The notes beneath the pieces are model-generated. The model was not told where the DNA came from. It ran no database searches and was given only the letters and a program-made list of their open reading frames with translations. The translations under genes were made by a program, and so were the position numbers. From a virus: a stretch of DNA of 31,801 nt. The stretch covers positions 1 through 31,801 of the IMG/VR virus record IMGVR_UViG_3300010373_000104; one strand, 5' to 3'. This document shows, in pieces, positions 19,186-20,977 of this stretch. Numbering within the stretch: the first letter of the stretch is position 1; every line of letters begins with the position of its first letter.

Positions 19186-19410
19186 GCTAAGCACTAACTA
19201 GAAACCCTAAGCACTCTAATCAGTGCTTAGGGTTTTTTTATTGCTTAATAGTCTAGTAATTCTATAGATTATATATAATAGCTAAGCATGATCTTAGCAT
19301 GATTAGAGTGCTACACATCCTAGCCTTAGGTTCTTAATGCATCTTTAGTCATAAGTTATAGCTAAGGGTGCTAAGCATACCCTTAGCATTATAGTATAGC
19401 TTAGATATAG
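19186..19410. repeat. Cluster of CTAAGCA / TGCTTAG words and hairpins
   Basis: The word CTAAGCA or its complement, exact or with one change, occurs about eight times, including the terminator stem. Two perfect hairpins are built from it: GCTAAG/CTTAGC at 19281-19298 and GCTAAGGGT/ACCCTTAGC at 19361-19387, whose loop is itself GCTAAGCAT. The flanks are AT-rich (TTATATATAATA). This looks like iterons or a regulator-binding array. Confidence 0.5.
19202..19239 (+). terminator. Strong rightward Rho-independent terminator
   Basis: AAACCCTAAGCACT pairs perfectly with AGTGCTTAGGGTTT (14 bp) across a 6-base loop, followed by a T-run to 19239. It closes the early unit that ends at 19183. The stem contains the CTAAGCA word repeated nearby. 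Confidence 0.95.
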
Positions 19411-19826: not shown

Positions 19827-19946
19827 TCATGTTATATCCATTCCATTGAAATAGGTATTATATATTCTCTTAGCCCATAGCTCATCTGGTATCTCTACCC
19901 AAGATCTACCTAAAGAATCTATTATTGTCTTGATATTACTTGACAT
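19827..19946 (-). CDS. Hypothetical 39-residue protein antisense to the late promoter
   Basis: A leftward frame with AGAAAG upstream of ATG. The product (starts MSSNIKTIIDSLGRSW, then VEIPDELWAKRIYN) is protein-like. Its start codon overlaps the -35 element of the rightward late promoter, so transcription of one may disturb the other. Function unknown. Confidence 0.55.
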   Translation of the reverse strand: MSSNIKTIIDSLGRSWVEIPDELWAKRIYNTYFNGMDIT

Positions 19947-19968
19947 TAGCTTTCTAATCCTATATAAT
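19940..19968 (+). promoter_or_regulatory. Perfect consensus sigma-70 promoter for the late operon
   Basis: TTGACA (19940-19945), exactly 17 bases, TATAAT (19963-19968): full consensus in both hexamers with optimal spacing. Transcription would start near 19975, about 20 bases before the first late gene. Confidence 0.85.
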
Positions 19969-19996: not shown

Positions 19997-20314
19997 ATGA
20001 TTTATAACTTAATATCTAGATATTATAAATATTATCTAATAGCAATCTTTAGTATAGCTATTCTTAGTCTTCTGTCAAGAGTTTCTTTTGCTCATGATTG
20101 GTATACTGGCACTGGATGTTGTGGTAACTTCCATTGTCATCCTATAGATTCTTGCTCAGAGATTACTAAGGATGCTCAAGGTAATCTCCATTGGCATCAG
20201 TATATCTTTACTCCATTACAAGAGAAACCATCACAAGACAGTAATTGCCACGTGTGTACCTATGGAATCAAACCGGACGATACTTTCTGTATCTTTACTC
20301 AACAGAGTAGCTAA
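19997..20314 (+). CDS. Exported Cys-rich protein, alphaproteobacterial-type family
   Basis: 105 residues with an N-terminal signal peptide (hydrophobic about 13-27, likely cleavage after SFA at 32). The mature part begins HDWYTGTGCCG and continues with CHPIDSC, GNLHWHQY, CHVCTYG and DDTFCIF. Small secreted proteins beginning AH(S/D)WY with a CC pair, a W-H element and a final C-F motif are common in Rhizobiales genomes and their phages; their function is not known. First gene after the consensus promoter; its stop overlaps the first zinc-ribbon gene. Confidence 0.75.
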   Translation: MIYNLISRYYKYYLIAIFSIAILSLLSRVSFAHDWYTGTGCCGNFHCHPIDSCSEITKDAQGNLHWHQYIFTPLQEKPSQDSNCHVCTYGIKPDDTFCIFTQQSS

Positions 20315-20409
20315 TGTCAGAGAAACCTAAATATTATATCTGTGATAACTGTGGTAGACGATGGCCTGTACACTACTGTTCTCAATGTGGAGTATTTATA
20401 TTACGATGA
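20314..20409 (+). CDS. Zinc-ribbon microprotein 1 (31 residues)
   Basis: Starts in a TAATG overlap with the exported protein. It contains CDNCG, eight residues, then CSQCG: two CxxC knuckles as in a minimal zinc ribbon. It is the first of five consecutive genes of the same design, each coupled to the next by a stop/start overlap and each in a new frame. Function unknown. Confidence 0.75.
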   Translation: MSEKPKYYICDNCGRRWPVHYCSQCGVFILR

Positions 20410-20495
20410 CTACCTGGACTTGCCCTAACTGTGGGTTTGAGAACCAAGAGACAACTAGATGCATTAGATGCAACTGGGGTACCTGGCCGTTATGA
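20406..20495 (+). CDS. Zinc-ribbon microprotein 2 (29 residues)
   Basis: ATGA overlap with gene 1. It has WTCPNCGFEN and CIRCNWG. The CPNCGFEN start resembles the N-terminal zinc ribbon of many bacterial double-zinc-ribbon proteins, here standing alone. Confidence 0.75.
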   Translation: MTTWTCPNCGFENQETTRCIRCNWGTWPL

Positions 20496-20575
20496 GACTA
20501 TTTCATATCTGTCCTAAGTGTGGCTTTGAACATAGACTAATGACTAGTAAATGCAAAGCATGTGGATTTGAATGA
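20492..20575 (+). CDS. Zinc-ribbon microprotein 3 (27 residues)
   Basis: ATGA overlap with gene 2. It has CPKCGFEH and CKACGFE, with a basic linker between. The shortest member; it shares the CGFE words with gene 2, which points to duplication. Confidence 0.75.
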   Translation: MRLFHICPKCGFEHRLMTSKCKACGFE

Positions 20576-20664
20576 TGTGGGTATGTAAACAATGCCACCG
20601 TCTTAACACAGGTACTAACAAATACTGTGGTGGATGTGGTTGGCCTAAGGATGCTTTATCCTAA
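20572..20664 (+). CDS. Zinc-ribbon microprotein 4 (30 residues)
   Basis: Tandem ATGATG, the first overlapping the stop of gene 3. It has WVCKQCHRLN and CGGCGWP, with the same spacing class as its neighbours. The residue after the second Cys is His, a possible extra ligand. Confidence 0.75.
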   Translation: MMWVCKQCHRLNTGTNKYCGGCGWPKDALS

Positions 20665-20750
20665 TGGCTTGGATATGTCCCGTCTGTAGAGGAAAGAATT
20701 GGGAACCAGACTGGAAATGTCGTAAGTGTGGGGCTGACCGTGCCGTATAA
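20664..20750 (+). CDS. Zinc-ribbon microprotein 5 (28 residues)
   Basis: TAATG overlap with gene 4. It has WICPVCRG and CRKCGAD. The C-terminal codons overlap the GTG start of the next gene, which is of a different family, so the zinc cassette ends here. Confidence 0.75.
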   Translation: MAWICPVCRGKNWEPDWKCRKCGADRAV

Positions 20751-20880
20751 ATCAGAAGCTCAAGCAGCATATTTCAATATGCATAAGAAACAATTACAGA
20801 AGCAAGGTGTAGATGTTAACGAATGGAACCAGGCTTCTAAAGGTAAGAAACTACCGAAGAGGAAAAGCAATGTTAGCTAA
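20740..20880 (+). CDS. Small phage protein with MPYKSEAQ start (46 residues)
   Basis: GTG start inside gene 5. The N-terminus reads MPYKSEAQAAYF and the C-terminus is Lys-rich (KGKKLPKRK). Short proteins beginning MPFKSxAQ and ending in a basic tail occur widely in phages of Proteobacteria; their role is unknown. The start overlaps coding sequence by 11 bases. Confidence 0.7.
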   Translation: MPYKSEAQAAYFNMHKKQLQKQGVDVNEWNQASKGKKLPKRKSNVS

Positions 20881-20977
20881 AGCAATAGATTGGTTTCTAT
20901 GGGGATTCTTCATGGGAATAGGCTGGGTAGTAGGAACTAATGTTCTAAACTTCATTGGTTCTTTTTTACACAGATGA
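20870..20977 (+). CDS. 35-residue membrane peptide
   Basis: ATG inside the preceding gene, stop overlapping the next ATG. Most of it is one hydrophobic, Gly/Trp-rich segment (WFLWGFFMGIGWVVGTNVL) ending in a short basic tail. A single membrane pass is likely. Possible lysis accessory or virion membrane component; not identified. Confidence 0.65.
   Translation: MLAKAIDWFLWGFFMGIGWVVGTNVLNFIGSFLHR

Follow-up and report, generated by a model that had tools for sequence, protein, structure and literature searches.

In lytic phages, T7 and SPO1 among them, early host-takeover modules consist of small, variable genes that stand behind strong host-type promoters. Zinc-finger microproteins are likewise already known as a kind of protein. 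They are known from haloarchaea (PMC6562870, PMC10716476), and HF1-group haloviruses have many small CxxC proteins without an assigned function, with products shorter than 100 aa from 14 of 23 and from 12 of 21 CxxC genes (PMC7230728). For the RanBP2-type zinc finger the consensus is W-x-C-x2-4-C-x3-N-x6-C (PMC6384913).

Here we describe a run of five very small zinc-ribbon genes in a 31,801-nt stretch of viral DNA (hereafter the window). By terminase homology and gene order, and as a description rather than a formal taxonomy, the window is a fragment of a Zobellviridae-like podophage. The terminase shares 55.4% identity with its counterpart in Celeribacter phage P12053L (Zobellviridae, Cobavirinae) at 99% coverage, and the gene order terminase-portal-scaffold-capsid is that of the Zobellviridae. 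Among the matches listed, the closest portal and terminase relatives are uncultivated contigs and the named phages are more distant; there were no near DNA matches to the window among named phages, and the tandem ribbon cassette was absent from the named phages of the family that were read whole (L005-L010). Rfam and tRNA scans gave no matches. The relatives compared below are a sample (at least 80 relatives in one listing; the best 80 of 519 for the portal), and one of them, L264, was first found by a motif scan and came up again in the portal scan.

Five overlapping microgenes and the class of their products

The cassette consists of five overlapping ORFs on the + strand (20314-20750) of 31, 29, 27, 30 and 28 aa, each with one CxxC-x(8-10)-CxxC module. 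These ORFs and the features that surround them are as follows.

19200..19237, + strand: terminator-like hairpin (consensus scan) with a 16-bp stem and a T tail, directly after the upstream 492-aa gene
19940..19968, + strand: perfect match to the sigma-70 promoter consensus, TTGACA-17-TATAAT, 28 nt before the 105-aa gene
19997..20314, + strand: gene for a 105-aa exported-looking protein with a hydrophobic N-terminus and an HxWY..CC motif, the first gene after the promoter
20314..20409, + strand: ORF1, 31 aa, C4 ribbon with an inner spacing of 8, not RanBP2-type by sequence
20406..20495, + strand: ORF2, 29 aa, RanBP2-like (WxCxxCxxxN, but N-x5-C)
20492..20575, + strand: ORF3, 27 aa, a loose RanBP2-type match (W absent, H in place of N) and the paralog nearest to ORF2
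20572..20664, + strand: ORF4, 30 aa, exact RanBP2 signature, AlphaFold2 pLDDT 91
20664..20750, + strand: ORF5, 28 aa, exact RanBP2 signature
20740..20880, + strand: likely next operon gene, GTG start, 46 aa, basic, with an 11-nt overlap with ORF5
20870..20977, + strand: 35-aa membrane-type peptide (IDWFLWG..GW), conserved in relatives, the right border of the variable slot

The junctions ORF1/2, ORF2/3 and ORF3/4 are ATGA (4-nt overlap) and the junction ORF4/5 is TAATG (1-nt overlap); the 105-aa gene also runs into ORF1 through a TAATG overlap. The sequence-only reading had described five tandem C4 microprotein genes of 27-31 residues, joined at ATGA or TAATG throughout, and the ORF coordinates, the shuffles below and the three ATGA and one TAATG bear this out. 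Its range of 8 to 11 for the inner cysteine spacing holds for 8 to 10 only (the values from ORF1 to ORF5 are 8, 9, 10, 10 and 10). Its statement that every gene lies in a new frame is correct relative to the preceding gene and incorrect overall: all cassette junctions make an identical -1 step, so that ORF1 shares its frame with ORF4 and ORF2 with ORF5. The promoter, the slot and the RanBP2-type signature had escaped that reading.

The five-gene run is not due to chance. The window contains no small ORF with a CxxC..CxxC motif other than the five of the cassette, which form one run. In 300 dinucleotide shuffles of the window the mean was 0.07 motif ORFs, with a maximum of one and never a run of two, and 2,000 shuffles of the 437-bp stretch gave no motif ORF in 1,992 cases and one in 8. 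Synonymous codon choice, a weak signal in this phage, ranked the own frame best of six for four of the five ORFs, the exception being ORF2. Shine-Dalgarno-like sites are fair for ORF2 and ORF3 and weak for ORF1, ORF4 and ORF5, and translational coupling may therefore not be uniform.

Judged by sequence, ORF2, ORF4 and ORF5 follow the RanBP2-type zinc-finger signature, ORF3 does so more loosely, and ORF1 is a C4 ribbon of a different type. The consensus is matched exactly by ORF4 and ORF5 and nearly by ORF2, which has N-x5-C; ORF3 lacks the W and has H for N, and ORF1 shows no fit. All five proteins score below the Pfam cut-offs (for the RanBP2 model PF00641, 16.8 bits for ORF2 and 15.2 bits for ORF5 against a gathering cut-off of 27), and Pfam, PHROGs and NCBIfam returned sub-threshold or generic zinc-ribbon matches only. 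Seven of 18 phage ribbons matched PF00641 at E<=0.01. Compared with PDB chains, a profile built from 18 phage ribbons, of which the window supplied four, matched RanBP2 (1.4e-14), Nup153 (2.8e-8) and L40e (3.5e-6), with rubredoxins lower.

For ORF4, AlphaFold2 with an 18-row alignment gave a pLDDT of 91 for a chain modelled without zinc. The top 15 Foldseek matches of this model were all RanBP2-type fingers (TM 0.77-0.88 by query length; 0.81-0.88, with rmsd 0.3-0.5, for the first six), among them Nup153, RanBP2, ZRANB2 and TRABID, and the best of them superposed on the predicted fold at 0.3-0.6 Å. The Foldseek E-values were weak (0.19 or worse), as expected for a length of 30 aa. Of the two ORFs modelled, ORF1 and ORF4, it is thus ORF4 that is predicted to have the fold of a RanBP2-type finger. 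The ORF1 model was less confident (pLDDT 84) and its Foldseek matches were mixed and weak. Caution is warranted with small chains, as AlphaFold 3 is reported, in the part of the study drawn on, to be confident also on random sequences of similar size (PMC12383448).

The promoter-proximal slot in related phages

The cassette occupies the promoter-proximal slot of the rightward operon, and the relatives of this phage keep this slot with 0, 1, 2 or 4 ribbon genes. The sequence-only reading had proposed copy number in related phages as a check, and variation was indeed seen, with five in the window as the largest number. The order after the promoter is an exported protein (present or absent), ribbons, and then the 35-aa membrane-type peptide. 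Between promoter and peptide there are five ribbons in the window, one in L372 and none in L348, L350, L360 and L034; just after the promoter there are two in L052 and L344 and four in L264, which has one more further on. The IDWFLWG..GW-type peptide was not found by pattern in the slots of L052, L344 and L264. Homologs of the 105-aa gene occupy the same position in L264 and L034, immediately preceding the first ribbon in L264, and in L052 and L372 a ribbon is itself the first gene, ~25-30 nt past the promoter.

Promoters were counted as consensus matches in 35 relatives (portal identity of at least 60%, at least 7.8 kb upstream, window included). Among the matches listed, 25 of the 35 have a sense-strand sigma-70 site of at least 11/12 up to 9.8 kb upstream of the portal, with 27 such sites in 329 kb, a few of which lie ~3 kb before the portal and outside the slot. 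The 10 relatives without an 11/12 promoter in the scanned stretch include the ribbon carriers L335, L336, L059 and L343. Five terminator-like sites were found in the region against 3.7 expected, and the hairpin at 19200..19237 has by far the longest stem. The related phage SIO1 reportedly lacks an RNA polymerase (PMC6775973), which would imply the use of promoters read by the host enzyme. Since structural genes follow the slot, the promoter may mean strong rather than early expression.

Several further features are recorded here in their own right. Two additional near-perfect sigma-70 sites (11/12 and 12/12) lie on the minus strand of the window at 20078-20051 and 2289-2261, one of the two pointing leftward from within the 105-aa gene. 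The family of the 105-aa exported-looking protein (window 19997-20314, L264:1128-1367 and L034:5091-5399) carries the motif HxWY..CC..CHP; in bacterial genomes, none of 66 pattern matches was confirmed as a homolog. In L367 and L353 the first called gene after the promoter (11/12 or 12/12) encodes a protein of 100-117 aa with several CxxC motifs.

Sense-strand ribbon ORFs occur, among the matches listed, in 10 of 43 relatives (window included), all of them within the 14 relatives of most similar portal. This set, with at least 7.8 kb upstream of the portal, leaves out carriers such as L365, L374 and L391/L392, and two of the ten, L335 and L336, have identical ribbons and are perhaps near-identical phages. 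Opposite-strand ribbons are present in L012, L017, L039, L052 and L076. In 120 distinct relatives with at least 900 nt before the portal, terminase and portal adjoin directly in 86 and are separated by ribbon genes in 2 (L059, L367), and a ribbon gene follows the portal in 3 of 113 (L367, L374, L392), starting with a 4-nt or 1-nt overlap, again among the matches listed. With overlaps at several gene junctions, the ribbon genes act like self-contained cistrons, joined to their neighbours by start/stop overlaps, that can be inserted there; GTG starts and gaps also occur in relatives.

Beyond these relatives, 86 RanBP2-type stretches flanked by ATGA on both sides were found in the viral collection. 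A small ORF with the full signature was present in 58 of 80 inspected viral loci and clusters of at least two in 7 (5 distinct, as those of L309, L446 and L458 are one sequence), and a cluster of five in none. In bacteria and archaea this pattern gave a small ORF of this kind in 9 of 80 inspected loci among the matches listed. Two tandem arrangements were noted separately: three small, paralog-like C4 ribbon genes in the haloarchaeal Halomicroarcula rubra (L480:5340-5851), and four small C4 genes of other types on one contig (L453:12429-13057).

Selection and origin

One ribbon ortholog pair, L052a/L344a, is under clear purifying selection. All four cysteines are kept, pS is 1.00 and pN 0.23, synonymous change is saturated (18.5 changes over 18.4 sites, against 17.5 over 77.6 for nonsynonymous change), and none of 5,000 neutral simulations had as few nonsynonymous changes. 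Selection was gauged on ribbon pairs of relatives rather than on the cassette because no close relative of the five proteins was confirmed in viral contigs (five-joined query; one unconfirmed pattern match). The opposite-strand pair L052/L017 gave a borderline signal (318 of 5,000 simulations), L391 and L392 have two differences, both nonsynonymous, and three further pairs are identical, hence uninformative.

Within the cassette, and beyond the shared cysteine frame, recent paralogy is apparent for ORF2/ORF3 alone (similarity z = 5.9; 0 of 300 shuffles); z lies between 0.4 and 2.7 for the remaining nine pairs. Local duplication, suggested by the sequence-only reading for the cassette, is thus upheld for this pair and not for the others. 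Comparably high values were obtained across phages, for ORF2 against the second ribbon of L052 (z 5.8) and the first of L264 (z 4.8), and for ORF4 against the second ribbon of L343 (z 5.6). We rejected simple tandem amplification of one ancestor as the sole origin, since the signal is confined to ORF2/ORF3 and several ORFs of the window are as similar to the ribbons of other phages as to each other.

Two loci in relatives are of separate interest. In L052:2149-2284 and L344:818-974 a conserved small gene (MLWYGSQ..NLR..) shares part of its sequence, in another frame, with the second ribbon gene. The features of each frame are preserved in the two phages, and the genes may be an overprinted pair. 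In L343:3302-4073 two ribbon genes have 1-nt overlaps with each other and with the next gene, whose 186-aa product looks methyltransferase-like.

Possible roles and comparison with known systems

We consider it plausible, if not quite probable, that the cassette is an expandable series of independent zinc-finger adaptors, probably expressed early and directed at host targets; modular adaptors were among the roles offered by the sequence-only reading and fit best of its options. Host RNA polymerase would transcribe the slot strongly, probably from the onset of infection, and the five proteins would be made in series by termination-reinitiation at ATGA and TAATG. Each would fold around one zinc and bind its own host macromolecule, more likely a protein than a GGU-type RNA, and the proteins may serve as small host-takeover or anti-defence adaptors. 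Gene number would change by gain, loss and occasional duplication of whole overlapping cistrons, with fast divergence outside the cysteines afterwards. More doubtful is the extended proposal of a promoter-proximal 'adaptor rack', in which RanBP2-type finger cistrons would come and go, with 0 to 5 per slot, and each would evolve towards a host or defence protein of its own; if true, it would be a bacterial-virus counterpart of eukaryotic RanBP2-like multi-finger arrays, split into separate chains.

Nucleic-acid binding, in which the fingers would bind RNA or ssDNA and tune the translation or stability of phage or host mRNA as in ZRANB2 and FUS, is unlikely. Fold and signature do match those of RNA-binding RanBP2 fingers (for example ZRANB2 ZF2, 3g9y), and 1 of 18 phage ribbons matches the NCBIfam 'putative Zn-ribbon RNA-binding protein'. 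However, in the residue register set by the ZRANB2 core, the W17/R19/R20 places hold T/T/N in ORF4 and W/P/D in ORF5, and only 6 of 90 distinct RanBP2-type cores have an aromatic residue after the Asn, none of these with R or K at Asn+4. In ZRANB2, ssRNA is contacted by W17, which is the stacking aromatic, together with R19 and R20 (PMC6384913); with ZRANB2-type contact residues absent, GGU-RNA binding is not favoured. It is decidedly unlikely that the ribbons are small structural-operon proteins associated with the virion or linked to assembly, even though they share its direction with tail, terminase and capsid genes and adjoin terminase and portal in a few relatives: 33 of 43 relatives, among the matches listed, have no sense-strand ribbons in the scanned stretch, and the ribbons are therefore not needed for assembly in general.

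A further idea is a single obligate heteromeric complex whose five subunits would be supplied in equal amounts through coupled translation. Tight overlaps and similar sizes would suit such a complex, but relatives have 0, 1, 2 or 4 ribbons in the slot and others at different junctions, which makes an obligate five-part complex very unlikely and disfavours the earlier suggestion of separately translated parts of one complex. In a split array, -1 frameshifting at the ATGA/TAATG junctions would yield one multivalent finger polyprotein. Every junction would require the identical -1 step and eukaryotic RanBP2 has eight such fingers in one chain, yet each ORF begins with an ATG placed precisely at its junction, and the GTG starts and gaps of relatives do not suit the scheme, leaving it extremely improbable. 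We give as little credence to a metal or redox buffer, another earlier suggestion that found no positive support: the 20 motif cysteines per 145 residues would suit it, but each protein has four motif cysteines in the geometry of a single zinc site, together with conserved non-cysteine signature residues (W, N, G).

Genes of 27-31 codons, a size that escapes usual gene calling, here stand in a strongly promoted slot of changing content, and such change among related phages is the pattern expected of host arms-race genes. If the five bind different targets, the slot would offer a directly usable catalogue of candidate host-takeover or anti-defence proteins, and a clear example in which to study how the smallest independently folding domains are multiplied and re-aimed.

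Compared with RanBP2-type zinc fingers (PF00641; Nup153, RanBP2, ZRANB2, NZF), ORF4 and ORF5 have the same WxCxxCxxxNx6CxxC and ORF2 comes near it; each phage protein differs in being a single finger that falls below the Pfam cut-off and lacks the ZRANB2 RNA-contact residues. To our knowledge, neither ubiquitin nor Ran is to be expected in a bacterial host. The analogy with the early modules of T7 and SPO1 would lie in small variable genes and a strong host-type promoter, and the difference in one kind of module being repeated. Haloarchaeal zinc-finger micro-proteins, as far as the consulted parts of their accounts go, share a size below 70 aa, two CxxC motifs and a single zinc module, and are not described there as overlapping tandem genes. 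Theirs are two C(P)xCG motifs, whereas the cassette proteins are all below 32 aa and have both motifs ending in CG only in ORF1 and ORF3; the Pfam model of HVO_2753 matched ORF2 alone, at 17.5 bits against a cut-off of 33.2. HF1-group haloviruses also have many small CxxC proteins, but their CxxC genes are absent, in the portion of the source consulted, from the terL-to-Rnr assembly region (PMC7230728), whereas the ribbons described here head the structural operon, lie within it in relatives, and stand in tandem. In the literature searched (abstract-level, open-access), tandem overlapping RanBP2-type microgenes were not reported from any phage. What is new here is the RanBP2-type signature, the sigma-70 promoter-proximal slot, the recent paralogy seen for ORF2 and ORF3 alone, the variable ribbon number and the purifying selection on one pair.
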